33,654 nucleotides of DNA, taken from an uncultured Gammaproteobacteria bacterium. Its GTDB lineage: Bacteria; Pseudomonadota; Gammaproteobacteria; Arenicellales; JAANXG01. Shown piece by piece: positions 6,728 through 29,166 of this stretch. Where the stretch lies: contig CAMYKK010000040.1 of NCBI GenBank assembly GCA_947258975.1, forward strand, positions 1 to 33,654, given 5' to 3'. The translations under genes were made by a program, and so were the position numbers. A model generated the notes under the pieces. The model searched no databases. It worked only from the letters and a program-made list of their open reading frames with translations, and was not told the origin of the DNA. Numbering within the stretch: the first letter of the stretch is position 1; the number at the start of each line of letters is the position of its first letter.

Positions 6728-6733
6728 CGGCGA

Positions 6734-8240: not shown

Positions 8241-8244
8241 CGGC

Positions 8245-8733: not shown

Positions 8734-9221
8734 AATCAAAACAGACGGGGCTGGCGACAGTGGAAATGGCGGTCGTGGGATCGGTGTTCTTCCTGGTGTT
8801 GTTCACGGTGATCGAAGTTGGCCGCCTGATGTGGACCTGGGAGACCCTGACCGAGGCCACACGCCGTGGCGCACGAGTCGCTGCGGTATGCCCGGTCAAC
8901 CACGCATCGGTCCCCAATGTCACAGTATTCGCGGACCCGGTTGGCGGCGGCCCAAGTGTTCTCCCCGGACTTTCCGCAAATGAGCACGTCGACGTGGATT
9001 ATCTCGACGTAAACGGCGTGGTGACAACGAATTGGTGTGCTATTCGCTTTGTACAGGTACGTATAAACGGGTACCAACACAGCCTGGCGATACCTTTTCT
9101 GCAAGACATTTTGTCAGTTCCGGAATTTGAAACGACGCTACCCAGGGAAAGCTTGGGAAAGATACCCGGCCGTGGATTTGAGTGCTTCGAAGTACCATCT
9201 GCGACGCCAATATGTACGTAA
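8715..9221 (+). CDS. TadE-like pseudopilin 2 (TadE/TadF)
   Basis: 168 residues. The N-terminus GLATVEMAVVGSVFFLVLFT is the TadE-type signal/membrane segment (Glu17), followed by IEVGRLMWTWETLTEATRRGARVA, a strong family match. The ATG at 8715 overlaps tadE by 19 bases. The ATG at 8727 overlaps its stop by seven bases and is equally possible. The last part contains Cys residues (FECFEV, PICT). It is co-translated with its neighbours. Confidence 0.87.
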   Translation: MVRGMLKSKQTGLATVEMAVVGSVFFLVLFTVIEVGRLMWTWETLTEATRRGARVAAVCPVNHASVPNVTVFADPVGGGPSVLPGLSANEHVDVDYLDVNGVVTTNWCAIRFVQVRINGYQHSLAIPFLQDILSVPEFETTLPRESLGKIPGRGFECFEVPSATPICT

Positions 9222-9236
9222 GTTTGAGGATCGACG

Positions 9237-10424: not shown

Positions 10425-10442
10425 GCGTGAGGGCGTAGAGAC

Positions 10443-11810
10443 ATGATTACCACGACGCAAACTGGCAATAGAAACACCGTCCCACTCGATAAAGGCCTTA
10501 AGGAGTGGGCGGACAGGCCTCTCACCGAACGCCAAGCGCTTCAGACTCTGCACCAGAAGTTGATCAAAGTTATGGATCTCTCGGTGTTGAGCACGATGGA
10601 ACAGGAGGACGCCAGGCGTAAGATCAGATCGATTGCCGACCAGGTGATCGTCGACCAGGCGATGCCGCTCAGCCTTGCGGTCCGACAGCGACTCGTCAAG
10701 CAAGTGGCAGACGAGATCCTCGGCCTGGGGCCGTTGGAGCCCTTACTTGCCGATACGAGCATCTCGGACATCCTCGTCAACTCGCACGACACGGTGTACA
10801 TTGAACGCCGCGGCCGTCTCGAGCTGACCGACGTTAAGTTCCAGGACGATCGGCATTTACTTCATATTATCGACCGTATCGTCTCCAGCGTCGGGCGCCG
10901 AATCGACGAATCTTCGCCGATGGTGGACGCGCGACTGAAAGACGGCTCGCGGGTAAACGCAATCATCCCACCGCTGGCCCTGGACGGCCCTATGCTCAGC
11001 ATTCGCCGGTTCTCGGTGAAACCGTTGAAGATGGAGGACCTCATCGGCTACGAGACATTACAACCCACCATCTCGCAATTGCTGATCGGGATAGTAAAGG
11101 CCCGACTAAATATCATAATCTCCGGTGGAACCGGATCCGGGAAGACTACGCTTTTGAACGTGCTCTCGGGCTACATTCCGGAGGGCGAGCGCATCATCAC
11201 CATTGAAGATTCCGCCGAACTGCAGTTCCAGCACGACCACCTCGTTCGGCTCGAAACACGGCCACCCAACGTGGAAGGAAAAGGAGAAGTGACGCAAAGG
11301 GATCTGGTGAAAAACACGTTACGTATGCGCCCGGACCGCATCATCATTGGCGAGGTGCGTTCCAGTGAGACGGTGGACATGTTGCAGGCGATGAATACCG
11401 GACACGACGGATCGCTCACGACCATCCACGCCAACAGCCCGCGCGACGCACTGACCCGGGTGGAGAACATGGTCTCCATGGCAGGATTTGAGATGCCGGT
11501 GGCCTCCATGCGCTCACAGATCGCTTCAGCTGTGCACGTCGTTTTACAGCTCGAGCGCTTGGAGGACGGTACCCGAAAATTGACCAGCCTGCAGGAGATC
11601 AATGGCATGGAGGGTGACATCATTACCATGAGTGAGATTTTCACCTTTGAACGGACGGGCATCGATGGCGACGGTCGGGTATTGGGGCAGTTCCGGGCCA
11701 CCGGTATGGTCCCGGTGTTCTTCGATCGATTACGCCGCCGTGGAATTGATCTCGGTCGAGACATCTTCGACCCCGGTACCGGTTTAGAGAGGGAGGTCGT
11801 CTATGGATAA
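10443..11810 (+). CDS. tadA: Tad pilus motor ATPase TadA/CpaF
   Basis: 455 residues, a type II/IV secretion ATPase. Visible motifs are Walker [10 protein letters not shown] (228-236), Asp box ITIEDSAEL (252-260), Walker B RIIIGEVR (299-306) and His box [12 protein letters not shown] (319-330). The N-terminal domain has the typical [11 protein letters not shown] and ISDILVN stretch (about 95-113). It powers pilus polymerisation (and retraction in some species) at the inner membrane with TadB and TadC. Its end overlaps tadB by eight bases. Confidence 0.97.
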
Positions 11811-12771
11811 CATGTTATTGATCTTCGTCATTCTTGTTTTCGTCGCTGCGTTTCTACTCATAGAACGCACCCTGGCGTTGACAATCGGCCCGAGACGCGC
11901 CGAAGCCCGGCGCTTTCAGGACCGACTGCGTTTCGTCACCGAGGTAGCGACCACGGGAGCCGCAGCGACCCTCCTTCGCAAAGCCGAACTCGATGAGAAC
12001 AATCGCTACCGGAAATGGTTCAGCGGTTGGCCGGGGATGAGTGTACTCGATGCCCGGCTGCGGGGAGCGGGTTACAAACTAACGGCGGCCCAGGTCCTTT
12101 TGATTTGCGTGGCCGTGGCGGCAACCGGCGTGGCGGCGTTTTGGTATCTGGGTAATCTGCTTGCGCTGGTGATCGGCGTCGTCCTTGCCTTCGCCCTACC
12201 GATAAAGATTACTGCCGATTACAACAAGCGGATGCGGGAGTTCGAGGAGGGACTCGTCGATGCGCTGGGAGTACTAACGCGATCCCTAAAGGCTGGACAA
12301 CCATTCCATGAGTCCATGTTGATGGTTGCCAAGGAATTGCAAGGACCCATCGCTGAGGAATTCGGATTGACTTTTGCTGAATTGAATTACGGCCTGTCTC
12401 CGAGGGAAGCATTTACCCACATGACCGAACGCGTTCCCAGTGTGACGCTAAAAGCGCTGGTGGTCGCGGTATTACTGCAGCGGGAAACCGGCGGCAATCT
12501 GGCCGAACTGTTGGAAAAGATCAGCACGGTCTTGCGCGGCCGCTTTCGTTTTCAGCGCAGAGTGAAAACACTGTCGGCGGAGGGTCGATTGTCTGCAGTA
12601 ATATTGATTGCCGTCCCCTTGGTTTTGTTCGGACTAATCTATATCACGACACCGAACTATTTGGTCGAGCTTACCGATAATTCGATAGGTCATACGATCA
12701 TTGCGATCTCAGCAGTCCTAATGGTGATCGGAATCATCTGGGTCCGTAACATCACTCGAATCGACGTGTGA
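11803..12771 (+). CDS. tadB: Inner-membrane platform protein TadB
   Basis: 322 residues with membrane segments near the N-terminus (about 5-25), in the middle (about 95-135) and two at the C-terminus (about 263-285, 297-317). The T2SS_F domain lies between, with [45 protein letters not shown] and [19 protein letters not shown]. It forms the membrane platform with TadC. The start is the ATG at 11803 inside the end of tadA, showing translational coupling. Confidence 0.95.
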
Positions 12772-12781
12772 GGAACAGATC

Positions 12782-13756
12782 GTGGAAAGTCTGTTGCGAC
12801 TATTGGAGAACTACTCGAGAGACCCGCTAGCGATGCGTTGGGGTCTCACCATCACAGTAGCGGTGGGCGTATTCCTTTTCATGTTGGGAGTCACCTACGT
12901 TTTCGTGGTGTTGTATGGACCGAAGCGAGCGCGTCTGCGTAAGGTAGTTGGTGAAGCGGTAAGCACTTCTTCTGCAGCGGTGAAATTCGGCGCGAGACTG
13001 GAACCGCTGGCGCCATACATCTTACCGAAAAAGGAATGGGAGAGAACCAAGACTGATGCGCAACTCGTGCATGCGGGATACCGTACGTCCCAGGCTTTGA
13101 CGATATTCTATGCGATCAAAACCGTGCTCGGCGTTGCCTTTGCCACGCTGGCGGTCACCTTAGGCCCACTGCTGGGGCAGCTGCTCGAGAGACAGTTCTC
13201 TCTGGCACAGATCGTGATTGGCGGACTGTTTCTTGGTTTTATTGGAATGGTAATCCCCAATTTTGTCCTCAATCGTTTGGTGGAACGACGACAACGATTG
13301 ATAAAGAAAGGTTTTCCCGATGCTCTTGATATGTTGGTCGTCGCCATGGAGGCGGGTATAGGCATCGCAGCCGCGATCGAACGGGTCTCCAGGGAACTGA
13401 GCCACAGTCATCCCCAGCTTGCAGACGAGTTATCTCTGGTAAACGCAGAGATCCGAGCGGGATTGGATCGTGGTGACGCGTTGAGAAATCTTGCACAACG
13501 CACCGGAGTAGAGGACTTAAATGTTTTCGCCGGTGTGATTGCCCAGACGCTACGCTTTGGCACTAGTATTGCCGATACGCTGCGCATCTTTGCGGAGGAC
13601 TTTCGTGACAAGCGTACGCAAGCCGCGGAGGAACAAGCCGCAAAAATAAGTACCAAGATGATCTTTCCTTTGGTTCTGTGCTTTTTTCCGTCGTTCTTTG
13701 TCGTCGCTGTAGGACCCGCAGTGATGAAAATAATGGCTGCATTTTCAAAAATGTAA
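12782..13756 (+). CDS. tadC: Inner-membrane platform protein TadC
   Basis: 324 residues. The start is GTG at 12782, ten bases after tadB, with GAGGAACAG ahead. Membrane segments are at about 20-45, 100-160 and at the C-terminus. The T2SS_F core shows FPDALDMLVVAMEAGIGIAAAIERVSRELS, ALRNLAQRTGVEDLNVFAGVIAQ and SIADTLRIFAEDFRDKRTQ, all strong TadC features. Partner of TadB. Confidence 0.95.
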   Translation: MESLLRLLENYSRDPLAMRWGLTITVAVGVFLFMLGVTYVFVVLYGPKRARLRKVVGEAVSTSSAAVKFGARLEPLAPYILPKKEWERTKTDAQLVHAGYRTSQALTIFYAIKTVLGVAFATLAVTLGPLLGQLLERQFSLAQIVIGGLFLGFIGMVIPNFVLNRLVERRQRLIKKGFPDALDMLVVAMEAGIGIAAAIERVSRELSHSHPQLADELSLVNAEIRAGLDRGDALRNLAQRTGVEDLNVFAGVIAQTLRFGTSIADTLRIFAEDFRDKRTQAAEEQAAKISTKMIFPLVLCFFPSFFVVAVGPAVMKIMAAFSKM

Positions 13757-13781
13757 TCGCATCACGAGAGACAGGTTTCCA

Positions 13782-14963
13782 ATGAAAAAAGACGCCAATT
13801 TGTTGATGTTCACTGTTGTTTTTTCGGCTCTATTGAGCGGTTGCGCAACTACTCCCACTACGAAATCCGGGCCTGACACTACTGATTTGTTGTACGACGG
13901 TAAGGCGGCGACGTTGTATGAAGCTAGAACAACTGTAAAAAGCAGTGCCGAAGCCATGGACCTTGCCAACAGCGCCTTACAAGTCGGAGACATCGATCGT
14001 GCCTTGTATCGGTATATCACCGCTTACGAGTTAGATCCCGAGTCCTACGAGGCACTCTACAAGGTTGGTGCGATTCACGCGAAGCAGGGTCATTTGGACC
14101 GCGCCGCATTGGCATTCGACATGGTCCTCAAACAGGAACCCGATCACGCCGCGACACTTGAAGAGTTAGGATTGATCGACATTCGCCGTAGACGATATCA
14201 GAAGGCCCGGGGGCATCTTAATAAGGCGGTGGAGGAAAACCCCAAGTTGTGGCGTGCGCTAAATGGTCTCGGAGTACTCGCGGATCTCGATAAGGATTTC
14301 GATACCGCGAAGGAATACTACGGTACCGCTCTGAAACTGTACCCTGGATCGCCGATGATATTGAACAATCTGGGCTATTCCGAGTATCTCCAAGGTCATT
14401 GGCAACGTGCCCAAAGCTACATAGAAGCGGCCCTAGACCGAAATCCCGGTTACAAGAAAGCGTTACTGAATTTGGGACTTATCCTCGTTCGCGAGGGGGC
14501 ATACGAACGCGCGGTAGCAGCCTTCGATCGTGTTATGGACCGCTCCAGGAGTTATGAGCGGATAGGTGCCTTGTGCATGGCGGAAGGGAAATACGATGCA
14601 GCCGAGCATTACCTTAATCTCGCAATTTCGACTTCCCCAACGTACTACAAAGAAGCGTTCGCCAAGTTGGAGCAACTGACGGCGCTGAGAACAGGGGCGA
14701 TAAAGTCACGGGTCTCAGTGCCCGAGCCGCCACAAGAACCAAAAAGATTCGAAGCGTCGTCCTATGATCTTTCGTTCATGGACGTCGCGCCAGGTCGTAC
14801 CGAGAAGGATGGAGGCCACAATGCCGATGAGTCATTGACGCTGAGTCGCCTGACGTTGGATCGCTCATTATATGTAACAACTACCGAACCATTGCTAGCT
14901 GACAATGACTACCACACCCGAAAGAAATTATTGGCGCAGTCGCATCAAAGCGCTCATGAATGA
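13782..14963 (+). CDS. tadD: TadD-like TPR lipoprotein
   Basis: 393 residues. The lipoprotein signal ends at LLSGC (Cys21). About six tetratricopeptide repeats cover residues 50-290 (for example LANSALQVGDIDRALYRYI, YEALYKVGAIHAKQGHLDRA, SPMILNNLGYSEYLQGHW, KKALLNLGLILVREGAYERA). TadD lipoproteins act as pilotins or scaffolds for the secretin and pilus proteins. The C-terminal 90 residues are low in recognisable features. The last 59 bases overlap the start of the downstream regulator, so the two are probably co-expressed. Confidence 0.88.
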   Translation: MKKDANLLMFTVVFSALLSGCATTPTTKSGPDTTDLLYDGKAATLYEARTTVKSSAEAMDLANSALQVGDIDRALYRYITAYELDPESYEALYKVGAIHAKQGHLDRAALAFDMVLKQEPDHAATLEELGLIDIRRRRYQKARGHLNKAVEENPKLWRALNGLGVLADLDKDFDTAKEYYGTALKLYPGSPMILNNLGYSEYLQGHWQRAQSYIEAALDRNPGYKKALLNLGLILVREGAYERAVAAFDRVMDRSRSYERIGALCMAEGKYDAAEHYLNLAISTSPTYYKEAFAKLEQLTALRTGAIKSRVSVPEPPQEPKRFEASSYDLSFMDVAPGRTEKDGGHNADESLTLSRLTLDRSLYVTTTEPLLADNDYHTRKKLLAQSHQSAHE

Positions 14964-15605: not shown

Positions 15606-17021
15606 TCACTGGGATACCGTGGACTTACGCTGCCACGATGCAATATTTGGCGTGGCTACGGTGGATTTTTTCCGTAATCCGTACTTGTCCAATAATCGGT
15701 AAAGGGTTATCCGCGACACACCCAAAGTATCGGCCGCTAGCGATACCTGATATTGGGCATCCTCAAGGGCACAGATGATTGCATGCCTATCCGCATCAGC
15801 ACGAACCTCTTCGAGCGTTGCCGTACCTCGATCCCGTTTTCGCCGCTCCAAACCCAAATCGCTCGTCTTGATCAAACGCCCTTCTGACATCACCAACGCG
15901 CGCCGCACGCAGTTCATAAGTTCGCGAACATTACCAGGCCAGTGGTAATTTTGCATGAACGCTAACGTGTCCTGGCGAAATCCCTGAACACGTCCGTTCC
16001 CCTCACTGGCAAACTTTGTGCCAAAGAAATGCACAAGTGGTTCAATGTCCGCCTTGCAGGAGCGCAGCGCCGGCATCTTCACACGCAACACATTGAGACG
16101 ATGATAAAGATCTTCGCGGAATTGCGAGGTTGACACTGCTTTCATCAAGTCTACATGCGTTGCGGCGATGACGCGGGTATCGACTTTCAGGCTCTTTGTG
16201 CCGCCTACATGCTCAATGGTCTTTTCCTGCAGAAAACGCAGCAAAGTAGACTGAACATCAAGCGAAAGATCGCCTATTTCGTCCAGCAATATGGTTCCTT
16301 GGTCAGAAGATTCGATGAGTCCGATCTTGGCCTTATCCGCGCTAGTGAATGCGCCTTTTTCATGACCGAACAGTTCGGACTGCACGAGCGATTCCGGCAA
16401 CGCAGCGCAGTTTACGGCTACGAACGGTCCGTTGGCGCGCGCGGAATTAAGATGTATCGTCCGCGCTGCCAGTTCCTTGCCGGTGCCGGTCTCACCGGTG
16501 ATCAATACAGGGACATCAACGGCGGCGATTTTGTCAAGAACACGCAGGAGTTCTAGGATCGGGGGGCTGTTGCCCACGATTTCCGAACCCGCTCTTTGTG
16601 CTTCCATCGATTCCAAAGGCTGCCCATGGATGATTTCTGACATACCGTATGCGCGCCCCAAGGTGATCGCGAGCCTCTGCGGATCGATCGGGAGAGTGTG
16701 GAAATCGAAGCAACGATCCGCAATAAGTTCGCGCACGGAGCTGTCCTCCGTATCGCACCGGTTGACGAGGGCCAACCACTCTACGTTAGGCATTGAAAGA
16801 ATTGTGTCCCGAGACCGCAGGAGAAATGCGTCGTTACGACGGTCTGCAAGACATACAGCACCCACCCGTAGTGGATGTGTCCGGGCAATCGCCACCGCTT
16901 GTTCGGGGTCAACGACCGGGTGTACGTTCCAGTCAGTGGCGATGCAACGCAACAATGACGAGGTCCCGTTGGACCCGTCATGCAATAATAGTAGATGCTT
17001 TTTCATGTCCCACCCGTACAC
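15606..17021 (-). CDS. Sigma-54 dependent type activator (NtrC/VpsR-like)
   Basis: 471 residues from GTG 17021; ATG 17006 is an equally good start. The N-terminal domain (about 6-128) is receiver-like but shows no convincing phospho-acceptor Asp (strand VGAVCL followed by AD). The AAA+ domain has Walker A GETGTGKE (176-183), the sigma-54 contact loop GAFTSA (223-228, normally GAFTGA), Walker B ILLDEIGD (244-251) and arginine finger segment FREDLYHRL. A Fis-type helix-turn-helix (LGVSRITLYRLLDKYG) lies near the C-terminus. It converges on the tad operon, whose pilin promoter is of sigma-54 type, so it is the obvious candidate regulator. The degenerate receiver recalls the VpsR group, some of which sense c-di-GMP instead of phosphate. 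That is inference. Confidence 0.9.
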   Translation of the reverse strand: MYGWDMKKHLLLLHDGSNGTSSLLRCIATDWNVHPVVDPEQAVAIARTHPLRVGAVCLADRRNDAFLLRSRDTILSMPNVEWLALVNRCDTEDSSVRELIADRCFDFHTLPIDPQRLAITLGRAYGMSEIIHGQPLESMEAQRAGSEIVGNSPPILELLRVLDKIAAVDVPVLITGETGTGKELAARTIHLNSARANGPFVAVNCAALPESLVQSELFGHEKGAFTSADKAKIGLIESSDQGTILLDEIGDLSLDVQSTLLRFLQEKTIEHVGGTKSLKVDTRVIAATHVDLMKAVSTSQFREDLYHRLNVLRVKMPALRSCKADIEPLVHFFGTKFASEGNGRVQGFRQDTLAFMQNYHWPGNVRELMNCVRRALVMSEGRLIKTSDLGLERRKRDRGTATLEEVRADADRHAIICALEDAQYQVSLAADTLGVSRITLYRLLDKYGLRKKSTVATPNIASWQRKSTVSQ

Positions 17022-17666: not shown

Positions 17667-18225
17667 TCCCGGGAAAATACCGTCTGTAGGACGTACCCGT
17701 CGCCCCTCACTCGCCGACTCCGTCCGAGTGACTCTGCTGGTGGCTACCCAGGATTTTTGACCAGTAAAAGAACATAAAAACAGGCTCTACCTGGCAAGCG
17801 CCAACGTCGCTAGACCGCATATTGCACCAGTCGCCCACCCGCCTTCAGGGAACTGACTGCAGAATCAATTGCATATACTGAATCATACCCTTGTCGCTCC
17901 GAGTACACTTTGCGCACGGCCGGTGTCCTATCCGGGCTCTGGCTAGTCCAGGCGCGCCTGCACTTGGCGTTCACTCAAGCCATAGCTACGGCTATGACTT
18001 TCGCTCCACTCCTTCGTTCAACCACCTCTGTCCTGCGCCAGCTTCCCGGATACTGGTGCAATATACGGGCTGATCCGCGGTCGTGTGGCACCGGCCGGTC
18101 ACGGCGATTTGCCCCTTCAGGTTTCTACCTGCCGCTACGCCATTCGTGTGGAAATTCCCGAAAGTCTTTGACTGCTTGGCAAGGGGATTGGACAATCCCA
18201 GGTAGTTCGGTGCCGTCGGATTTGG
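17667..18225. other. Mobile-element debris, not identified
   Basis: No intact gene. The region leads into the IS91 transposase relic and may include its 5' end; amino-terminal transposase sequence before 18226 is too degraded to read. Confidence 0.3.
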
Positions 18226-18727
18226 CCTCACGCGCGTTGCGAATCCTGCCACGCGGAACGCCTGGTGGCGTTCAGTTGTAAGCGGCGAGGTATTTGCCCC
18301 AGCTGCGGGGCACGGCGTATGGCGGAAAGTGCCGCATTGCTGGTGGATGCGGTCTTTCCCTCTCAGCCGGTGCGCCAATGGGTGCTGAGTTTCCCGTATC
18401 CATTGCGTTTCCTGTTCGCCAGCCGCCCAGGCGTAATGGGTAAAGTGCTGGGGATTGTCTACCGCGTCATCGCCACGCATCTGATCAAAAAGGCGGGTTT
18501 TACAAAAAAGGCCGCTCACACGAGCGCGGTGACGCTGATCCAGTGTTTGGGGGGTTCGCTGAATCTCAACGTCCAGTGCCTGCGGCGGCGCCGTCAAAGC
18601 GATCGCCTGCATCCAGGATCCGGCAGTAATCGACAAGATCCTCACCCATCTACAGGAAAAGGTCGTCTCGGGTCCAAACGACCTGCTGCCCCAAAGCCGG
18701 GCACCACCTGCCGGTCTGTTCGACTGA
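18226..18727 (+). pseudogene. IS91-family transposase relic with internal deletion
   Basis: The readable frame gives CESCHAERLVAFSCKRRG, ICPSCGARRMAESAALLVD, VRQWVLSFPYPLRFLFASRP and YRVIATHLIKKAGF, which are standard zinc-finger and core motifs of IS91-type (Y2, rolling-circle) transposases. After LIQCLGGSLNLNVQ (near 18575) the frame jumps. The next recognisable part is the extreme C-terminus (AVKAIACIQDPAVIDKIL...SRAPPAGLFD, stop 18725-18727). The middle third, including the catalytic region, is missing. A fragment from that missing middle lies at 32056-32192. It is non-functional. Confidence 0.85.
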
Positions 18728-18895
18728 CCCGACAGAACCCACAATGTCATCAAATTGCTGCTACCTACAGGGACACGGCAGGGTATCGCTTGGCCCCCGG
18801 GCTGAAAATGGATGGTCAATCCGGGAAACACGCTGGACAGCGCACCCCAATCGGGCAAGCATTCTTGGTGAACAGGACAAAAAGCGCTGTGAACG

Positions 18896-18949
18896 GCTCC
18901 TCAATAGATACCGACTTCAGAGAAAAGGGCTTTTATTCTACTTAAACTC
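18896..18949. repeat. 54-bp repeat, left copy
   Basis: Identical over all 54 bases, and in the same orientation, to 32577-32630. It starts GCTCCTCAATAGATACCGAC and ends CTTTTATTCTACTTAAACTC. Its right edge is the exact point where readable aceK sequence begins, so it marks a recombination or insertion junction. It may be a terminal part of an IS; which one is not established. Confidence 0.9.
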
Positions 18950-20121
18950 TGCCGGACGTCCAATCCATCGAAATGATTGACGCAGGTTTCTATCGAAATC
19001 GAGGTGCCTACTTGGTAGGGCGAATTATTTTGCAGGACGCAGCTGTCGTTCCTTTGATCATAGCCATCCTGAATGGGGACCACGGTCTTTATGTTGATGC
19101 GGTGCTGAGCGCCGAGGCGGATGCGCATAACTTGTTCAGTTCGACACTGGCAAATTTTCACGTCACAAACGAGTACTAACACGAGCTAGCCGCATTTTTG
19201 CATAGCATCATGCCGGAGCGGCCCTTGGGTCTGCAGTATACGTCCATTGGGTTTAATCACATCGGAAAAGTTGCCGTGCTGAGTGAGTTGAAGGGAGAAC
19301 TTACCGCGACCGCAGAGGTATTTGAAACGGCCGTGGGGTATCCAGGTACCGTTACTATTGGTTTTGCGGCACCTTCCTCCTCTTATAACCTCAAGGTCAT
19401 TCGAGATAAACCCACGGAGCAATACAAGTGGGGAGACTATGAAGGCCGCGCAGCGGTGCTGCGGAAATACGGCGGAGTGCATGAAATTAATCGGGCAGGG
19501 AGCATGCTTGACAATGTCATCTACTTCAATCTCAAGCTGGAAAAAGAATTATTCGAGGCGTCGTTACTCGAGGAAATGTTGCGAGAAGCGAGCGAGAGTG
19601 TCTCGTTGGAAGACGACAGCATCATTTTTAAGTATCTTATAGTGCAGCGAAAACTCGTTCCATTGCCGGTGTTTTTAAAGTCCGCTTCCCGCGAAGATGC
19701 AGAAACAGCGGTCGTTAACTTAGGCTATTGCATTAAGAACAATATGGCAGCGAATATCTACAATAAAGATCTCGATGCACGAAATTATGGTGTTAGCAGA
19801 TTCCTGAAAGTGTTTTTATTCGATTACGATGCGCTGGAACAGTTCACGGACGTCAAGATTCGAAGTAATACAGACCGAATTGACGGCGAAGAAGACATAC
19901 CGGATTGGTACTTTGAGGACGGCGTTGTCTTTCTGCCCGAGGAAATCGAAGTGGGGCTGGGCATTGAGAACAGATCCTTGCGCCGCCTGTTTCGCGCGGC
20001 GCATGGAGACTTGTTGACAACGGAGTATTGGGAACGGATCCAACGCGACCTGAAGGCGGGGAAAGTGCCGCGCTTACACGTATATCCAGAGGAACGGCGA
20101 CTGAAGAGGGAAACCAACTAG
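18950..20121 (+). pseudogene. aceK: Isocitrate dehydrogenase kinase/phosphatase, 5'-truncated with in-frame stop
   Basis: The frame reads LPDVQSIEMIDAGFYRNRGA then YLVGRI...YVDAVL, and FSSTLANFHVTNEY. A TAA follows at 19177-19179, then the same frame goes on with HELAAFLHSIMPERPL, IGFNHIGKVA, the ATP-site NLKVIRDK, and MLDNVIYFNLKLEKELF. It ends with NIYNKDLDARNYGVSR, the DFG-like FDYDA and DWYFEDGVVFLPEE. These are the core and C-terminal parts of AceK, which toggles isocitrate dehydrogenase between active and phosphorylated forms at the glyoxylate branch. Full-length AceK is about 570-600 residues. Here the N-terminal regulatory third is gone, cut exactly at the 54-bp repeat. The consensus acidic residue after DYD is Ala. 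The longest remaining open part is 19198-20121. No aceA or aceB is in the window. Confidence 0.88.
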
Positions 20122-21298: not shown

Positions 21299-22552
21299 TC
21301 ACGCCTTGTCGTCCTCGGAATGCTGCCAGGTATGGGGTGGACTGAGCACGCCCTTCTGCTCGTGTGCGGATCGTACCTGAAAGGAATAGGCGCGCCAGTG
21401 AAAGTCGTAGGCGTATCGCCAGTCGCTTGGGTATGCGCCCACATCAACAAAGTATTCGCCTTGGGTCAGGTCCAGCCGTTCCAGGTTCAAGCTGATCTTT
21501 CCCGGCCGATGCGTGGTCGGAACCTCAATACCCTCTGCGGCGGTACTCAATTCGGAACAAACCTCGCCTTCGGCGTTGTGCACCGAAACCATAAAAATTG
21601 GCGATTCTATTGTCTTTCGAGGTGTGTAGCCTAGCTCGATCTGCATGGGGTCGCCGCTGCGGATCTCTTTGACCGAGTCGCCGAGCGTGTCCAGCAGACG
21701 GACCGAGGTTATTTCCAACTCCATGGAACCGAATCGGTTCTGATTGGTGCGCAGCGGGACACCAGAATCCGTGACTCGGGTGGACGATTGCGTCGGGGTG
21801 TGGAGACGCGTATTTCGTGTCATAGCCAGCTCGTATTGCTGGACAACGACTTCTGAATTGCCCAGGGCACTCACTGTCCCGTCTTCCAGCCACAATGTGC
21901 GGTCGCATATCTGTCCCACTTGCTGCATGTCGTGGGATACCAGGACTATGCTGCAGCCGTCGCTTTTAAATTTCAGTATGCGTTCGATACACTTCTGTTG
22001 AAACCCGAGATCGCCCACCGCCAGCACCTCGTCGATCAACAGCACGCGTGGTGAAGTGTGCACGCCGATGGCGAACGCCAGGCGCAGTTTCATGCCGCTG
22101 CTATAGGTGCGTATCGGGTTGTCTATGAACGGCTCCAACTCCGCGAACTGGATTATGGATGCGAGTCGTTCCTTCGTCTGCGCCCGGGTCAGTCCCGCGA
22201 CCAGGCTGCTGACAAAGATGTTTTCACGCCCGTTCAATTCCGGATGAAACGCAGCCCCTAGCTCCAGCAGCGCCGCAATGGGTCGCGGTACCCACACAGT
22301 TCCCCGGTCCGCCCGGCCGACGCCACCGATAAGATGCAGGAGCGTCGACTTACCGGCGCCGTTGCGCCCGATAACGCCGAGTATTTCGCCCGGCGGTACG
22401 TCAAACGTCACATCCCGTAGCGCCCAGAACCTCTCCCCGGCACGCCACTTACTGAACCGCCTTACTATCGCCTCCTTCATCGTTGTCGGCCGATCGGCGT
22501 GATAACGGTAAAACTGCTTTGAGAGACCTTCGACGTGAATCCCCTGTTGCAT
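21299..22552 (-). CDS. wzt: ABC polysaccharide exporter, ATP-binding subunit (Wzt-like)
   Basis: 417 residues. Walker A GRNGAGKST is at 62-70, signature YSSGM at 150-154 (the usual form in this O-antigen/teichoic acid subfamily) and Walker B VLLIDE at 170-175, then the H-loop VSHDM. After residue 250 comes a C-terminal domain of about 150 residues with beta-strand character (ITSVRLLDTLGDSVKEIRSG, IESPIFMVSVHNAEG, GKISLNLERLDLTQGEYFVD), matching the Wzt_C carbohydrate-binding domain. That domain recognises the modified end of the glycan before export. The gene follows the permease by three bases. Together they export a lipid-linked polysaccharide made by the upstream glycosyltransferases. Confidence 0.93.
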   Translation of the reverse strand: MQQGIHVEGLSKQFYRYHADRPTTMKEAIVRRFSKWRAGERFWALRDVTFDVPPGEILGVIGRNGAGKSTLLHLIGGVGRADRGTVWVPRPIAALLELGAAFHPELNGRENIFVSSLVAGLTRAQTKERLASIIQFAELEPFIDNPIRTYSSGMKLRLAFAIGVHTSPRVLLIDEVLAVGDLGFQQKCIERILKFKSDGCSIVLVSHDMQQVGQICDRTLWLEDGTVSALGNSEVVVQQYELAMTRNTRLHTPTQSSTRVTDSGVPLRTNQNRFGSMELEITSVRLLDTLGDSVKEIRSGDPMQIELGYTPRKTIESPIFMVSVHNAEGEVCSELSTAAEGIEVPTTHRPGKISLNLERLDLTQGEYFVDVGAYPSDWRYAYDFHWRAYSFQVRSAHEQKGVLSPPHTWQHSEDDKA

Positions 22553-22555
22553 CCC

Positions 22556-23326
22556 TTACAATTCCTCCGCGAACGCGTGGCTGAGCTTCAGGAAGTATCG
22601 GTAACCGGTCAGCAGTAGCACCAGGGCAACGCCGATTATGATCGCCAGGGCCGACCAGCTCACCTCAGTTGCCAGTAGCGCCGAACGATAACCGTCCAGA
22701 ATATGTACCATAGGATTTAAGTTGTATATGTGTCGATATTCCTCCGGAACCATGCTTGCTTGGTAGAAAATGGGGGTGAGGAAGAAGAACAACTGGAGTA
22801 TTACTGATACCAAATGGGCGGTGTCGCGGAACAGGACATTTGCCGCGGCGAGCCAGTACGCCAAACCCAGGGTAAGCGTGAACTGAATTGCGATGAACAG
22901 GGGTAACAACAATATTCGGAACCCCGGACCGGCGTCGGTCAGAACGAGAAATAGTATGAACAGCACGAGTCCGAGCAGGAAATGGACCAGGTTGCTGACT
23001 ATCGTGACCGCCGGCAGAATCGCGGGCTGGAAGCCGGGGGTCCTGACGAGTTCGCGGTTGTGAACGATCGCGCCGATTGCCTGAGACAATGAACTCTGGA
23101 ACCAATTCCAGACCAGTATCCCAGTGAAAGCGAACGGACCAAAGCGGGGAATGTTGATCGACATAGCCATCTGGAACACGAAGTAAAATACGGTCAAATA
23201 CATCAGTGGATTGGCGAGTGTCCACGCAAACCCAAGAGCCGATCTTTTATATCGCACCTTCAAATCACGAGAGACGAGCTCCCGTAATAGGTCGCGGTAG
23301 TACACCGCACGCGAGAGAGTATTCAT
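22556..23326 (-). CDS. wzm: ABC polysaccharide exporter, permease subunit (Wzm-like)
   Basis: 256 residues of the ABC-2 type. The amphipathic N-terminus YYRDLLRELVSRDLKVRYKR is typical, followed by LGFAWTLANPLMYLTVFYFVF and about six membrane helices. FTGILVWNWFQSSLSQ and FFLTPIFYQASMVPEEYRHI are family landmarks. It is paired with the Wzt-like ATPase immediately downstream. Its ATG overlaps the stop of a nine-codon frame (23323-23349) that has a better ribosome site than its own. Confidence 0.93.
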   Translation of the reverse strand: MNTLSRAVYYRDLLRELVSRDLKVRYKRSALGFAWTLANPLMYLTVFYFVFQMAMSINIPRFGPFAFTGILVWNWFQSSLSQAIGAIVHNRELVRTPGFQPAILPAVTIVSNLVHFLLGLVLFILFLVLTDAGPGFRILLLPLFIAIQFTLTLGLAYWLAAANVLFRDTAHLVSVILQLFFFLTPIFYQASMVPEEYRHIYNLNPMVHILDGYRSALLATEVSWSALAIIIGVALVLLLTGYRYFLKLSHAFAEEL

Positions 23327-23557: not shown

Positions 23558-26224
23558 TTATCCGGCCGGACTGTGCTCGCCGTATCCGTGACTTTCCGGC
23601 GGCGCGCTCCTGCCCTCCCTGCGCACCCGCCGGCGCGATCTCCAAAGGGCAAACGGTCCGACGAAATTGCCCATAAGCTCCACTGCGAGGAGGGACATTG
23701 GGTACACGCTTCGCCCGCGCAGCCTCCGCTTGGCGCGGCCGAGATAGGCGAGGGGCAGACCCAGGAACAGACGGGAGAGGGCGCGCGCATCGCGATCGTT
23801 GAACAGGGTGGTCAGATGATAAGCGACGTGCCCCTTGCTGTAGTTGTAGATCTGGCGACGTAGCGCCGTGCGGCTGCGTCTATGGGTATGCCACACGTAT
23901 GCGTCCGGCTGATAGGCCAGGGTGTGTCCCGACTTGATGATCTTGTAAAACAGGTAGGTATCCTCGCCCACCCCGCTCGGCATGCCCGCCCCCAGGGTCT
24001 CCTCCATCAAACCTATCCGAGGATCTCGAAGCAAGCGTGCACGGAATGCAGCGTTCGCGGTTCCGCCCAGGTTCCAGGTGGGTACGGATTGCCACTTGTA
24101 TGAGCGAAACCATGCGAGATCTGCCTCCAATTTTTCAAAACCTCGGCCCAACCCGCCGTAGACCTCGTACAGACACTGTGCTTCGGTTTCCAGTTCCTCG
24201 GGCAATACGTTTCCGGTTACCGCTCCCACGTTGGTGCGTTGAAACGGTACAAGCAGGCGCTCCAGCCAATCGTCGGGCATGGTCACGTCATCGTCGGTGG
24301 TGACGATAATCTCCCCCGAGGCGGCCAGGATTCCCGCGTTGCGTCCGTAGGACGAGCCTTGACGGGGTTCCTCGATGAGTGTGGCCTGCGGGAAGTCCAG
24401 AACCACTCCGCGGGTCAGCCCCGACGACGGATTATTGTCCACGACCAGGATCTCCGCCGCACGGTCCGTAGCCTGTGATACCAGGTAGCCTAGGCAGCTC
24501 CGCAGGTGGTCGGGCCGATCGAAGGTCGCGACGATGACGGACACCGAAACATCGCGGGAAAGACCCGTCGCCGTCGACTGCGCGCCGCCGCTCAGGCTGT
24601 CCAATCCGGTTTTCGCTGCCTCGGTGTAAGGATCGTAGCGGAATTCCCCGGGCTCGCCGGTTACCCGATACGCAAGCTGGTCCGCGATGGCGTCGCGCAG
24701 ACAACTCGCGCTGACCGGCTGGAACAGATTATCGATGTCAACATTGCCCAGCAGGCGACCGGACAGGAAAGCAAACACCCGGACCTTGGGATAGTCCACC
24801 ACGTCGTCCAGCGCCCCCAGCGGCTCACTCAAATCGACGGTGCGTACCGCAATCGGGTACCTGCGGCGCATAGAGGAAAACCGCTTATCGTAGTCAATCG
24901 CGACGACCGGCGGCTTCCTCGGGTCGGAAAGGGGAATCTCCATTACTCCATAGCGGGCTTCTATGTCAGACTGGATTTTCCGCGCTTGGCGGTAACGTCC
25001 GAGGCCGACCAGCGACCCGCGAAATTCCGCAAACACCAGCTCGCGTGGCATATTACCCTTACCCAAAAGACTCTTAAGCAATCGGCGGAGGTTCCACCAC
25101 CACATCCACCAGATTCCGAAGCGTATGACGCGGGTGCGTAGAGCGGGATAGGCCCGGGCGGAGCGTACAAAATGGGAATAGAGCCCTATGCCGTGATTGG
25201 TCAGTTGAGTCTTCAGCTCCTCTAAGGTGGAACGATGACAGTGGCGGATGACGGCGGCGGGTTCGTACAACAGGGTGTACCCCTCCTGGATGACCCGGAA
25301 AAACATCTCCAGGTCGCCGCCGCCGTTGGTCACCGTACCGACGTCCAGGGCGGGATCGAAAGGCCCGATGCGATCGAACACTTCCCGCCGGTATGCCATG
25401 TTCGCACCGGTGCCGAAGCACCCGGATCCGATGTGCAGGAGCCGGCCGCGGGGATTGACGCCCGCGCGGCCCCATCGCCTGCGAAATCCCTTGCCGAAAC
25501 CGCCGTAGCGCTCAAAGAGGATCTGGGCCTGGGTATCCAGGGCGTGCGGCACCACGAGTCCAGTCACCGCCATCACGTCGGAGTTCTGCGTAAACCCCGC
25601 GACCAGGACGTCGACCCAATCAGGATCGACCCGCGCATCGTCGTCGGTGTACGCGAGTATTTCTCCGCGGCACTCGGCGATGGCGCGGTTGCGCGCCCAG
25701 TCGAGTCCCGGCCGCGGTTCGCACACGTAACGCACCCCGGGGAAATCCCGCTGCACGAGCCGCTCCGTGGCCTCGTCGCTGGGGGCGTTATCCACAACCA
25801 GCAAGTCGAGTGAGGGGTAGCGGAGCTTGGTTAAGGCATCCAGGCAATCGGCTAGATAGGAGGCGCGGTTCCGGGTGCACACCGCCACGGTGACCAGGGG
25901 TCGAGGGTCCACCTCGACACCCGGAGAGTTTCGCCCTGAATCCACGGGCGACCACGTATCGCCTTCGAGGGGCCTCGCTAGCCGCTGAATCGTCATCACT
26001 CGGAGGATCTCACCGCTATGATTGCGCAGTATCTCATCTCGCAACGCTTCCGCGCTGCAGCGGCCACCGTCGAGGGGCAGCGTGATATAACCGAGGGGGG
26101 TGCCGTGTAATCGAAGCAACGCCCGTATTTTGTCGTAGGCGTCAAATCCGGCTATGTCGTTCAACGGCTGCCCAAGCTCCACGTCCAGGACCTTGATGCG
26201 GTTGTTGATTGCAATGTTAATCAC
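23558..26224 (-). CDS. Tandem-duplicated family 2 glycosyltransferase
   Basis: 888 residues made of two copies of one unit. Each unit has a small N-terminal module (about 9-72, VLDVELGQPLNDIAGFDAYD; and 458-520, VRTVDLSEPLGALDDVVDYP, both followed by K(I/V)R and a CLRD/ALRD helix) and a GT-A GT2 domain. Domain 1 (110-340) has VTVAVCTRNRASYL, TDDD at 193-196 and a GGGDLEMFFR acceptor/catalytic segment. Domain 2 (558-800) has VSVIVATFDRPDHL, TDDD at 643-646 and GVGEDTYLFYK. The offset is about 450 residues throughout. A short hydrophobic patch (IWWMWWWN, 371-378) sits between them, and no clear membrane helix was found. It probably adds two sugars, or alternating sugars, to the exported glycan (inference). 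It follows the next GT gene by three bases. Confidence 0.9.
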   Translation of the reverse strand: MINIAINNRIKVLDVELGQPLNDIAGFDAYDKIRALLRLHGTPLGYITLPLDGGRCSAEALRDEILRNHSGEILRVMTIQRLARPLEGDTWSPVDSGRNSPGVEVDPRPLVTVAVCTRNRASYLADCLDALTKLRYPSLDLLVVDNAPSDEATERLVQRDFPGVRYVCEPRPGLDWARNRAIAECRGEILAYTDDDARVDPDWVDVLVAGFTQNSDVMAVTGLVVPHALDTQAQILFERYGGFGKGFRRRWGRAGVNPRGRLLHIGSGCFGTGANMAYRREVFDRIGPFDPALDVGTVTNGGGDLEMFFRVIQEGYTLLYEPAAVIRHCHRSTLEELKTQLTNHGIGLYSHFVRSARAYPALRTRVIRFGIWWMWWWNLRRLLKSLLGKGNMPRELVFAEFRGSLVGLGRYRQARKIQSDIEARYGVMEIPLSDPRKPPVVAIDYDKRFSSMRRRYPIAVRTVDLSEPLGALDDVVDYPKVRVFAFLSGRLLGNVDIDNLFQPVSASCLRDAIADQLAYRVTGEPGEFRYDPYTEAAKTGLDSLSGGAQSTATGLSRDVSVSVIVATFDRPDHLRSCLGYLVSQATDRAAEILVVDNNPSSGLTRGVVLDFPQATLIEEPRQGSSYGRNAGILAASGEIIVTTDDDVTMPDDWLERLLVPFQRTNVGAVTGNVLPEELETEAQCLYEVYGGLGRGFEKLEADLAWFRSYKWQSVPTWNLGGTANAAFRARLLRDPRIGLMEETLGAGMPSGVGEDTYLFYKIIKSGHTLAYQPDAYVWHTHRRSRTALRRQIYNYSKGHVAYHLTTLFNDRDARALSRLFLGLPLAYLGRAKRRLRGRSVYPMSLLAVELMGNFVGPFALWRSRRRVRREGRSAPPESHGYGEHSPAG

Positions 26225-26227
26225 AAA

Positions 26228-27397
26228 TCAACACCGTTGACCGCCGGAGGCGGATATCGGATTGTCGGCCGTGCGCGCCGTCAACGGTGTGAGATTATGC
26301 TCACGTTGCAGGCATTGGGCGCGGGTCAGGCGCCGTTGTTGGATGCGTCGCCAGATCCCCCAACCCTGTGTATCCACCTTAGATGCGGCGTAGGCGTCGG
26401 CATTGGCATCCGCGTCGCGTCGCGAACGGCGCCACTCACTGACACGTTCGCGAACGAACCTGGGGGAGGCCCACTGTAACAGATTCTTCGCCAGCAACCT
26501 GCGCGCCCTCCTATTCGTAACTATCGCAGGGTCCGCCGCTACGGCGCTGAACAACCAGCGCAGCGCCTGGCCATGGTTGCCCGCGAAGCTACATCGACCC
26601 GCCAAATACCAGGCGTAATTGCCACGAGACCAGCGTTCGATCGCGCGCGGGATCGACAGTTCGCGCTGGCGCACCGCGCGCATCATCGTCCTGTAGGACT
26701 CTAACATCTGCTCCGAGTTGCCCGACATGCTGTCCGAGGTCTTCCGGTAGCGCACGAGATACTCGGGGATGCACGCAAACTCATAGTGTTCCGCGATGCG
26801 AAGATAGAGATCCCAGTCCTCGCACCCTTGTGCTCCACGCTCTTTGAAGTCTTGGTTGTAGGTACTAACCCGCTCTAAAACCGCCCGCCTAATCAGAGGA
26901 GAGCTGGAGTTGCCGATAAAGTTACCGAGCAACAAAGGCAGCCAGACATCGCCCTGCACTCCGAGTTGGTTCCCGTAGCCGCTTAAGATCTCATTGTTTT
27001 CGTCAATTCGCTCGGACCACGTGTAGATCAGTCCGACGATGTCGGGCGACGCGGCCATCAACCGGACTTGTTTCTCTAGTTTCGATTTGTGCCAAAGATC
27101 ATCGGCGTCGATGGGTGCGACATAAGCGCCGCGGGATTCCCGAATAGCCCGGTTGCGGGCCGCGGCGACTCCCGAGTTTTTCTGTCGGAGCACGTGCACG
27201 CGATTGTCAGCACCGGCGTAGCCTTGCGCGATTTCGGCAGTGCGGTCGGTGGACCCGTCGTCCACGACCCACACCTCGAGGTTCGTATAACTCTGCCCGA
27301 GTACCGAGTCGAGGGTTGGGCCGATATACCGCTCGGCGTTGAACGCCGGGAGCACAACGGTGACGAGGACGCTAATATCGTTTTCGGCTGGTCTCAT
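26228..27397 (-). CDS. Family 2 glycosyltransferase
   Basis: 389 residues. The GT-A domain starts SVLVTVVLPAFNAERYIGPT, then VWVVDDGSTDRTAE, GVAAARNRAIRESRG and the DxD-type metal motif PIDADDLWHK, with the downstream acceptor-side CEDWDLYLRI. The C-terminal 150 residues are basic and helical (RARRLLAKNLLQW, RRIQQRRLTRAQ). It is soluble or membrane-associated at the cytoplasmic face. It overlaps the upstream GT gene by four bases, so the three GT genes form one translational unit. Confidence 0.92.
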   Translation of the reverse strand: MRPAENDISVLVTVVLPAFNAERYIGPTLDSVLGQSYTNLEVWVVDDGSTDRTAEIAQGYAGADNRVHVLRQKNSGVAAARNRAIRESRGAYVAPIDADDLWHKSKLEKQVRLMAASPDIVGLIYTWSERIDENNEILSGYGNQLGVQGDVWLPLLLGNFIGNSSSPLIRRAVLERVSTYNQDFKERGAQGCEDWDLYLRIAEHYEFACIPEYLVRYRKTSDSMSGNSEQMLESYRTMMRAVRQRELSIPRAIERWSRGNYAWYLAGRCSFAGNHGQALRWLFSAVAADPAIVTNRRARRLLAKNLLQWASPRFVRERVSEWRRSRRDADANADAYAASKVDTQGWGIWRRIQQRRLTRAQCLQREHNLTPLTARTADNPISASGGQRC

Positions 27398-28431
27398 CTA
27401 ACAGGACTGCGAGGGGCATCGGCAACGCGCGCCGGTTTCTTGTCTCGTTGCCCTGATGGCAAATTGAGCAACGTTCTGGCTAAAGTTAAACCCAGCGTGC
27501 GCGGCGCAATCCACACCATCGCGAGAGCGACCGACAGCGCCAACGCTTTTACCCTTCCTGTACCGCCGGTCATCAGCGGCGACAATACCAGCACATGGAA
27601 CGGAATGGTTTCGTAGTTGCGGTCCATCAGCGCAACTGAGTGGGCTTCCAAATTGTGTCGCCAGGACCGTTTCCACTTATGCCAACGCTCTTCGGGGGGC
27701 TGGTAGCCTGCCTTCTTTGCCCAATGCGTCACGTAATCTATGTTTCGCTTCACTCTATGAAGTTTCTTCTTGAGTGATGCCGCTGTGAACACAGTCCGGC
27801 CGTACCAATGGTTGTCGTCGTGTATCCGATAATGGGCTACGGTGACGGGAATGGACTCGACAGGTCCAAACAGGGGTGCGACCCGGTTTAGGTATCCGTC
27901 TGGATAATCGATCTCAGGAAGCGGCATGACCAGTTCGAGGAACCAGCGCCGCCAGGCGTTTCCGGAATTATAAGGGGCGCGATAACTCGGCCTCGTGGTC
28001 AGCAAGTCCTCGCTGTAATCTCCGGACGGTGGAAGTTTACGGGGAATCTTCTCCCCGGTCGGCGTCCCAGACTTGTCGACTACCTTAAGATATCCTTGGC
28101 TCTTGACGAGGCGATTGTCCCTCCGCAAGGGCTCCACCAGCGTACTTACCGCGCCTGGCAGCAGTACATCATCGGCATCGAGAAATATCACGACCTCGCC
28201 GCGGCTCATCGCAAAGCCTCTATTGGTGGCGGCGCACTGACCCGCGTGAGGACTCCCGGTGGCCACCACCTGATCGCCAAAGCTTGCGATGACGGCCTGC
28301 GAATCGTCGCTGGAACCGTCGTCGACGACGATTACCTCGATGGGATCATAGGTCTGCGCGAGGACGCTGTCGATGGCCTCGCCCAGAAAATGACCGTAGT
28401 TGTAGTTCGCAATGACAACGCTGACTAGCAT
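27394..28431 (-). CDS. Family 2 glycosyltransferase, first gene of the polysaccharide operon
   Basis: 345 residues when started at ATG 28431, where the canonical GT2 beginning MLVSVVIANYNYGHFLGEA appears and GAGGGTGG lies just ahead. The frame is open for another 74 codons upstream from 28653, but that extension has no family resemblance and is rejected. Motifs: VIVVDDGSSDDSQ, AATNRGFAMSRGE, and FLDADDVLLPG (DxD). The C-terminal region is basic with a hydrophobic patch (VALAMVWIAPRTLGLTL) that may contact the membrane. A CRP-like site is centred about 70 bp upstream of its start. Confidence 0.9.
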   Translation of the reverse strand: MLVSVVIANYNYGHFLGEAIDSVLAQTYDPIEVIVVDDGSSDDSQAVIASFGDQVVATGSPHAGQCAATNRGFAMSRGEVVIFLDADDVLLPGAVSTLVEPLRRDNRLVKSQGYLKVVDKSGTPTGEKIPRKLPPSGDYSEDLLTTRPSYRAPYNSGNAWRRWFLELVMPLPEIDYPDGYLNRVAPLFGPVESIPVTVAHYRIHDDNHWYGRTVFTAASLKKKLHRVKRNIDYVTHWAKKAGYQPPEERWHKWKRSWRHNLEAHSVALMDRNYETIPFHVLVLSPLMTGGTGRVKALALSVALAMVWIAPRTLGLTLARTLLNLPSGQRDKKPARVADAPRSPVR

Positions 28432-28494
28432 ACCACCCTCGGACCGGCATCCCCCCTGCACAATCTTATTATATCCCCTCGCCCCCGGGCGCAT

Positions 28495-28510
28495 GGTGAC
28501 GAAAGTCACA
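28495..28510. promoter_or_regulatory. CRP/FNR-family-like binding site
   Basis: GGTGACGAAAGTCACA contains the core GTGA-N6-TCAC(A) of CRP-type sites, here part of the perfect palindrome GTGAC-N4-GTCAC. It sits about 64-79 bp upstream of the first glycosyltransferase start on the minus strand. The same core occurs at 33221-33236. Confidence 0.45.
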
Positions 28511-29166
28511 GAGATGTTCCCCGGTACCCCACTATGTTTTCTCCCCCGAGGTGCCGAGTCTGCGATCCCCTTTGCACGGCGCACAGGGCTCCGCTTTATA
28601 CCAATGCCGGACCGACGCAAGGCATCGACGATCACTTGTGTTTCCGGCGCCAACCCAGGCGGTGTTCCACTTGGCGGCGAAACGGATTCACATACTGCGA
28701 CTACCCAGGTTTCCGGCAGCGCCGACAGGAAGCCCCGAGCGATACGCCGCGACCGGAGAATGGGCGCGACGTCCTGAAAGGTCGAGGTGAGGGGATTGCA
28801 GGCGCAGGTTAATGTGGCAGGCGCAGTGTGGTTTCCCGATCCGTCTTGTCTATTCTATGTATACCGTATTTCAATACGGGTCGTACTCTTGAAAAATAGC
28901 TTTTATCCGACCTATTCTCAGACCGTGGCAGCGGGCTGCGGGGACGGCTGTTGTAGAATTAGCTTTATCCATCATAATAAGGCGTTGCCGGCCCGGTGTT
29001 CGGCCACTATTCGGCGATGCGGTGGGTTTCGCCATGGAGAGTTTCGCAACCAAGCAAAGAGCGCCTGCGCACCGCGAATACCAGCAACGGCTTCGCCACC
29101 TCGGCGGGGCGCGGTCATACAACGGGACATGCCCTCCCAGGACAGTAATTCGGAACACAATCTAAG
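28511..29166. other. Divergent intergenic region
   Basis: No supported gene between the minus-strand glycan operon and the plus-strand DHH gene. Open frames on both strands look like GC-driven chance. It contains the palindrome at 28864-28879. Confidence 0.35.
28864..28879. promoter_or_regulatory. Palindrome CCGTATT-TC-AATACGG
   Basis: Perfect 7-bp arms and a 2-bp spacer in the divergent intergenic region, the size of a typical dimeric repressor operator. The partner protein is unknown. Confidence 0.3.

Follow-up and report, generated by a model that had tools for sequence, protein, structure and literature searches.

A dual GT2 glycosyltransferase beside an ABC exporter: a repeated small module, and a possible origin of the protein by fusion of old paralogues

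How does a single glycosyltransferase come to contain the same two parts twice, and what could the smaller part be for? The question is raised by a gene in a contig of 33,654 nucleotides from an uncultured gammaproteobacterium (CAMYKK010000040.1 of assembly GCA_947258975.1, analysed over its full length and called the window below). The protein of 888 residues is laid out as module, GT2 domain, module, GT2 domain, with an offset of about 450 residues between the halves (450 for the TDDD motifs, 447–448 for the modules). A sequence-only reading of the window had described this order, with a TDDD in each half, and both Pfam and our own profile hidden Markov models (HMMs) bear it out. The same reading had explained the layout by duplication of the whole unit within the gene, and here our results differ. 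The whole-unit repeat is real but, judging from the trees, old, and the sequences are better explained by the fusion of two module-GT2 genes that were already old paralogues than by a duplication in the window gene. What the dual protein and its module may do is a question on which we can be less firm.

The two units and their origin

The two modules of about 65 residues are homologous. In direct comparison the module regions (residues 1–105 and 446–557) match by pairwise blastp at an E-value of 6e-5 and the two halves of the protein at 5e-45 with 30% identity, in both cases in a small search space. Such matches between the two modules of one protein (E<1e-3) are found in only 6 of 29 dual proteins. 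The first module HMM was seeded with the window's own modules, and it was therefore cross-tested by HMMs built from one half only. An HMM made from first modules matches 28 of the 29 second modules, and the reverse is also true for 28 of 29; the one-half HMMs give no match among 3140 decoy open reading frames (ORFs). This decoy set had first been cleared of any ORF that the module HMM matched at E<1, which makes the control lenient. In both halves the module match (window in the seed) lies directly before the GT2 domain, which is how we define membership in the module-GT2 family. After iteration the module boundaries are residues 10–70 and 457–518.

Structure prediction agrees. The AlphaFold model of the whole protein, made from a 34-sequence alignment, has a predicted local distance difference test score (pLDDT) of 87 and a predicted template modelling score (pTM) of 0.84. 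It gives module 1 strands at residues 10–16, 32–39 and 42–50 and a helix at 58–81, and module 2 strands at 458–464, 480–487 and 490–497 and a helix at 506–522. The two segments hence have the same order of strands and helix (they were compared by this order and by profiles, not by coordinates), and not the unrelated folds that the sequence-only reading had named as evidence against itself. Modelled alone, the module reaches a pLDDT of 89.5, with about 95–98 over residues 11–80.

The module was not recognised in that reading, and the domain libraries do not recognise it either. Even at E 10, Pfam finds no match for the two window modules, and it gives stray weak matches for two of three related stretches examined beside them. 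In NCBIfam, module 2 has no match and module 1 a weak one to a regulator (0.014), and the module sequence profile finds a single chance match in the PDB (0.97). Fold searches with Foldseek and VIA give nothing at E<0.001. Among the folds listed are many PD-(D/E)XK nucleases, as well as Rai1/DXO and others, but with a best VIA Z of 3.8 and a best E of 0.1 we put this likeness down to a widespread three-strand-and-helix arrangement, and a nuclease-like fold was rejected. The module is undescribed in Pfam, NCBIfam and the PDB, which proves no new fold. In the open-licence PMC literature we recognised no paper about the module or the dual family.

To follow the two units over longer times, relatives were collected with a profile of ten units over the GTDB species genomes. 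The search gave at least 593 pattern matches and at least 447 relatives, and 78 loci were taken from the best 80 of these 447. Close relatives of the window protein are over-represented in this sample, which is a poor guide to overall abundance. Duplicate loci (L009, L094 and L101) and glycosyltransferase (GT) matches with an E-value above 1e-25 or a length below 140 residues were left out before anything was counted. The larger unit tree contains 172 units from the 78 loci plus other loci, the smaller one 68 rows. Branch support is the Shimodaira–Hasegawa-like approximate likelihood ratio test (SH-aLRT) from a quick search, and the approximately unbiased (AU) tests also rest on quick trees.

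In the 172-row tree, 34 of 36 N-terminal (N) halves and 34 of 36 C-terminal (C) halves fall into separate clades (SH-aLRT 97 and 99), which also hold 11 and 3 single genes, respectively; two dual proteins, L047 and L086, lie outside this pattern. Each half has its nearest rows mostly among the corresponding halves from other phyla. The modules behave in the same way, with N modules matching N modules best in 29 of 29 cases and C modules matching C modules best in 29 of 29. A recent internal duplication of the module-GT2 unit, for which the shared order and the 30% identity of the halves could speak, is hard to reconcile with these patterns, and a tree with the two window halves as sisters is rejected outright (p-AU 2.3e-44). 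Unless the model fails grossly, the tree already refutes such a duplication, and we give it next to no credence.

A milder form of the same idea places one ancient duplication at the base of all dual proteins. In its favour, the 172-row tree leaves the joining of the N and C clades unresolved. Holding all N and all C halves together is weakly rejected (p-AU 0.034, in a test chosen after the tree had been seen). The smaller tree groups the C halves with IIIb, the downstream genes of what we call type III pairs, and not with the N halves (SH-aLRT 99), a grouping that the larger tree also leaves unresolved.

The two units are not fused everywhere. In the Acidobacteria loci L048 and L043 they are coded by two genes side by side, of which the leading one belongs to the N clade and the next to the C clade, and in L017 two N-type genes and one C-type gene follow each other. 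If the dual protein is a fusion, as we prefer to think, these split forms may be ancestral or later fissions. The C-type unit of L017 (7700–9358) has two tandem modules ahead of one GT2 domain.

A second, independent fusion is found in a myxococcote (L047:2980–5616), with halves that fall among the two genes of type III pairs; it sits downstream of a protein with ABC_membrane and ABC_tran domains. Fusions of yet another kind occur in L014:3876–6209, L015:4092–6269, L086:3993–6344 and L091:2189–4393. Here a GT2 domain without a module stands in front of a module-GT2 unit, and the module therefore lies in the linker.

Locus types, exporters and other enzymes with the module

Units of this family tend to occur as one-of-each pairs. 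Among 92 loci, 27 have exactly one N and one C unit (a pattern that a dual protein gives by construction), 13 exactly one IIa and one IIb, and 13 exactly one IIIa and one IIIb. The other 39 are arranged differently; 12 of them have just one unplaced unit, and 6 just one IIIb. Loci with a dual protein are our type I; in type II loci the two units are unfused, and a third GT2 gene usually lies between them.

ATP-binding cassette (ABC) exporters were counted by phmmer with the window's Wzm and Wzt (E<1e-20). For type I the count covers 31 dual loci with one dual each, the window included. Not counted are the second dual protein in each of L026, L029, L034 and L030, the loci that are split, cut or broken in frame (L017, L041, L043, L045, L048, L054 and L082), and also L047. 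By phylum, 13 of the 31 loci are from Cyanobacteriota, 6 from Verrucomicrobiota, 4 from Chloroflexota and 2 from Planctomycetota (both in one genome). Pseudomonadota, Actinomycetota, Nitrospirota, Gemmatimonadota and an unplaced bacterium contribute one locus each, and the window is the last.

The exporter link holds for types I and II. Wzm is present in 28 of the 31 dual loci, and Wzm together with Wzt in 25, of which 23 have both close by on the same strand; 11 of 13 type II loci have both and the other 2 Wzt only. In type III, 12 of 13 loci have an ABC protein of only weak likeness to Wzt. The proteins of this sort that we examined combine ABC_membrane and ABC_tran, in L055 and in L047 (which is outside the 13). 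The ABC protein adjoining the type III pair of L052 is nearest to HepA, with 583 bits against a cut-off of 725. We also considered whether type III pairs correspond to alr2836 and alr2837 of the Anabaena heterocyst polysaccharide. This idea was dropped, as a table in PMC2211374 gives these genes a length of about 970 bases, too short for a module and a GT2 domain.

In the loci that we examined, most GT2 units of this subfamily have the module in front of them, and it is also found on other enzymes. At E-values of 1e-8 to 1e-2 the first-pass module HMM matches proteins outside the subfamily. According to Pfam these include sulfotransferases (L053, L056 and L088) and proteins that combine GT2 with a NodS-type methyltransferase (L068, L074, L085 and L080, to which the iterated HMM adds L062). 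A polysaccharide deacetylase is also present in four of these five GT2-methyltransferase proteins, the fifth (L068) being cut by the edge of the locus, and the L053 frame also runs into a deacetylase-like end. The edge likewise cuts the module-bearing frames of L053, L056, L088 and L018, the last a GT2 frame for which a whole-genome search gives 1213 residues. Two module copies are present in five proteins (L053, L056, L068, L074 and L085). Aligned by hhalign, the modules of these other enzymes match the N-terminal modules at 98.7% (E 2e-16).

In type II clusters, the middle GT2 ends in a C-terminal tail that resembles a diverged module. The alignment of this tail, from 14 sequences, matches the N-terminal modules at 90.7% (E 1.3e-6), compared to 5.2% for the best of 100 column shuffles. 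Searched whole, 15 genomes or records have 1 to 6 module matches each, in frames of 374 to 1603 residues, and in 12 of the 15 all matches lie on one contig. These counts are lower bounds, as the profile misses known copies (in the L078 genome it finds one match, the iterated HMM two).

Some of these clusters have further unusual proteins. L053:7030–9099 is a Wzt with a sulfotransferase domain fused behind Wzt_C, and it adjoins the separate sulfotransferase with two modules; it is possibly an exporter-linked enzyme that modifies chain ends. The GT2-methyltransferase-deacetylase proteins of L074:7636–11196, L085:7634–11245, L080:163–4971 and L062:6640–10107, with one or more modules each, are very long. 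Taken with the sulfotransferases and ABC-2 exporters that similar clusters have, they recall the set of activities that makes Nod factors.

A possible role for the dual protein and its module

Both GT2 halves look active, because the catalytic acids are kept in both. Among 34 dual proteins, D194 is kept in 32, D195 in 31 and D196 in 31; in the second domain D644 is kept in 34, D645 in 32 and D646 in 32. D304 of the GGGD motif is the probable catalytic base of the first domain, as in other GT2 enzymes, and E754-D755 presumably forms the catalytic acid pair of the second domain (counts in Table 1).

Dual glycosyltransferases beside Wzm and Wzt are already known. The closest systems are the polymerases of ABC-dependent O-polysaccharides, such as WbdA, WbbB and ORF6 of Klebsiella O7 (two GT2 modules). 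Like the window protein they have two GTs in one chain and belong to an ABC-exporter locus, and in the window Wzm and a Wzt with Wzt_C lie directly downstream. The window protein differs in having the small module twice, in a cluster of five genes without a terminator domain in Pfam. WbdA is not known to be a GT2 enzyme. The modules of WbbB are given as GT99, GT102 and GT103 in PMC11231755, unlike the GT2 pair of the window.

A likeness to bifunctional GT2 polymerases had already been suggested from the sequence, and it stands as far as the general plan is concerned. The chondroitin polymerase of E. coli K4 (K4CP) and the heparosan synthase of Pasteurella (PmHS2) also have two GT domains per chain, and in Foldseek the whole model matches K4CP and heparosan synthase first (E 2.5e-14 and 6.5e-12), but template modelling (TM) scores are only 0.2–0.3. 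The sequence match to K4CP covers residues 108–217 only (phmmer E 4.3e-9) and does not amount to full-length kinship, and the module profile matches no PDB chain apart from the chance match given above. In NCBIfam the GT2 domains match best the mycofactocin glycosyltransferase MftF (TIGR03965), with 193.9 bits against a curated cut-off of 280 and a best stretch that begins at model position 68. Single-unit homologues with the same module, about which the sequence-only reading had wondered, do exist. Single module-GT2 genes of cyanobacteria and others (for example, Gloeothece L012 and Nostoc L068) also lie beside Wzm and Wzt in one-of-each pairs; unlike the window gene they are unfused and usually have a third GT2 gene between them.

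We propose that the two GT2 halves would add sugars, alternately or successively, to a lipid-linked glycan on the cytoplasmic side of the membrane. The product, either the repeat or some fixed portion of a surface polysaccharide, would be exported by the adjacent ABC transporter, as in ABC-dependent O-antigen pathways with dual-GT polymerases. A bifunctional enzyme that feeds the exporter is suggested by the likeness to Klebsiella and E. coli. There, according to PMC11231755, the O-polysaccharide is made by dual-GT proteins of ABC-exporter loci before it is exported, and the polymerase and terminator enzymes, in one case together with adapter enzymes, interact with one another. Less surely, the module may dock glycan-building and glycan-modifying enzymes to one another or to the exporter. 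We prefer docking because the same fold turns up, within one kind of cluster, on enzymes whose chemistry differs; it may stand ahead of the catalytic domain or after it, singly or doubled. For the reading as a whole, in which a fused old pair assembles a glycan for the adjacent exporter and the module is a docking piece, we see about even chances. A wider version is more tentative and, in our judgement, somewhat more apt to be wrong than right. It would make the module an undescribed docking domain that gathers the glycosyltransferases, sulfotransferases and methyltransferase-deacetylases of ABC-export clusters in many phyla into one complex, with fusion (at least twice) as the extreme form.

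The sequence-only reading had considered both an acceptor and a partner as what the module could bind. Docking is our first choice for the module, and its main rival is binding of the glycan or of the lipid carrier, whereby the module would present the growing chain or an undecaprenyl-linked acceptor to each enzyme. A substrate shared by all enzymes of a cluster would explain why GT2s as well as sulfotransferases have the module, and the aromatic Y30 of module 1 is well kept (Y in 29 and F in 2 of 34 duals). Typical sugar-binding modules have an aromatic surface. However, the best-kept positions among those examined in module 1 (R38 in 33 of 34, P43 in 32 and G41 in 31, followed by E16, D14, Y30 and P50 in 29 each) show little of one, and the fold lists do not point to any sugar-binding module, which is weak evidence. 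Binding of this kind seems unlikely to us, though well worth keeping in mind. Less probable still is a structural cap that helps the GT2 subfamily to fold and has no role of its own. Such a cap would agree with a module that precedes most GT2 units of the subfamily and is less conserved than the GT2 domain. It does not agree with the modules on sulfotransferases and behind other GT2s, where this GT2 domain is missing, or with the tandem copies. The remaining rival concerns the product of the dual protein, which could be a fixed adapter or a short oligosaccharide, with polymerisation elsewhere. The cluster is small, with four GT2 domains, an exporter and no terminator domain in its five genes, and would suit such a product; the dual-GT proteins of comparable Klebsiella and E. 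coli loci, on the other hand, are polymerases in PMC11231755. We consider an adapter a real possibility, if a somewhat less than even one.

Several observations weigh against the reading that we prefer, in which the fused pair serves the exporter and the module docks. We found no biochemistry on any family member. Pfam detects neither a terminator (methyltransferase, kinase or coiled-coil GT; no prediction of coiled coils was made) nor a sugar-nucleotide domain in the five cluster genes, and polymer assembly by the window protein is for this reason putative; a terminator may lie elsewhere in the genome. The module is not always linked to an exporter, because some dual loci and all 13 of the "other" single-unit loci are without Wzm and Wzt. 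Among the dual loci this applies to 3 of 31 in the stretch examined (one of them, L028, is cut short), and in 2 of the 25 loci with both genes these lie on the other strand. Against K4CP, the whole model has TM-scores of only 0.20/0.29 despite the low Foldseek E-value. Mean pairwise identity is 0.40 and 0.34 for the modules compared to 0.60 and 0.57 for the GT2 domains, and the tail of the middle GT2 matches the sulfotransferase-type modules at only 27.5%. Lastly, a profile search of the whole window genome finds the module in the dual protein only. Docking through like modules would there be limited to the protein's own two halves, or would involve a partner without a module. By itself the window genome speaks for neither docking nor glycan binding.

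What stands out here is a small domain without a Pfam or NCBIfam model that marks many enzymes of widespread glycan-export clusters, including sulfating and methylating ones. If the module docks enzymes, this would suggest an ordered assembly complex formed by means other than the coiled-coil scaffold of Klebsiella, and the module could serve as a sequence tag for finding such clusters and for sorting the enzymes that work together. The adjacent and the fused forms of the same pair are a natural series for asking why glycosyltransferases fuse.

The gene cluster and its surroundings

The dual gene is the third in a compact run of five genes on the minus strand, which by Pfam encode two GT2 proteins, the dual GT2, an ABC-2 permease and an ATPase with Wzt_C (Table 1). 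The Pfam domains across the five genes are GT2, ABC2_membrane, ABC_tran and Wzt_C. The two other GT2 proteins are without a module, both in the profile search of the whole genome and on inspection by eye.

Table 1. Coordinates of the dual gene, its parts and the neighbouring cluster genes in the window
Feature	Position	Strand	Evidence
Dual module-GT2 gene	23558..26224	-	open frame, 888 residues, GTG start; two PF00535 stretches; dual homologue L016, 54% identical
Module 1 (residues 8–73), strand-strand-strand-helix	26006..26203	-	module HMM, independent E 4.6e-27 (window in seed), 3e-22 after iteration; AlphaFold2
First GT2 domain (residues 107–345)	25190..25906	-	PF00535 at 112–286; own GT HMM 4e-87 (window in seed)
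TDDD of first GT2 (residues 193–196)	25637..25648	-	conservation of D194, D195 and D196 in 34 duals
D304 of GGGD, probable catalytic base of first GT2	25313..25315	-	D in 34/34 duals
Module 2 (residues 456–522), predicted strand/helix order as module 1	24659..24859	-	module HMM 1.2e-23 (window in seed), 4e-19 iterated; HMM from first modules only 1.2e-7; AlphaFold2
Second GT2 domain (residues 557–795)	23840..24556	-	second PF00535 stretch; own GT HMM 3e-77 (window in seed)
TDDD of second GT2 (residues 643–646)	24287..24298	-	conservation of D644, D645 and D646 in 34 duals
E754-D755, probable catalytic acid pair of second GT2	23960..23965	-	E in 31/34, D in 32/34 duals
GT2 gene directly upstream of dual	26228..27397	-	PF00535 1e-36; GT2 gene at equivalent place in L009/L016
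GT2 gene, first of cluster	27394..28653	-	PF00535 1e-28
Wzm-like ABC-2 permease gene downstream of dual	22556..23326	-	PF01061 7e-20
Wzt-like ATPase gene, C-terminal Wzt_C domain	21299..22552	-	PF00005 2.5e-19; PF14524 1.7e-21

The order GT2, GT2, dual, Wzm, Wzt is common to the window and L016, which comes from another uncultured gammaproteobacterium record and is the same gene as L009. Full-length dual proteins are rare in the class, with 2 in 369 genomes including the window and a single-unit match in a third genome; a search of the other 99 relatives gave no match at E 1e-30. Elsewhere in the window genome there are three Wzy_C matches and three Wzt_C domains. The Wzy_C family includes the ligase WaaL, and from these matches a ligase is possible.

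Other parts of the window are less closely tied to the glycan cluster. Positions 18265–18945 (within 17910–20121) look like the remnant of an IS91-type transposase, with a Zn-binding domain that scores 26.1 bits against a cut-off of 26.3, and the ORF beside it (19198–20121) matches only the AceK kinase model. Both are perhaps leftovers of rearrangement next to the cluster. About 4 kb from the end of the cluster, on the minus strand, there is a sigma-54 activator with a VpsR domain (15606–17021); VpsR regulates polysaccharide genes elsewhere. The stretch 4358–14963 looks like a Tad/Flp pilus cluster, with a Tad domain in 6987–8240 and the other names taken from reading the translations.

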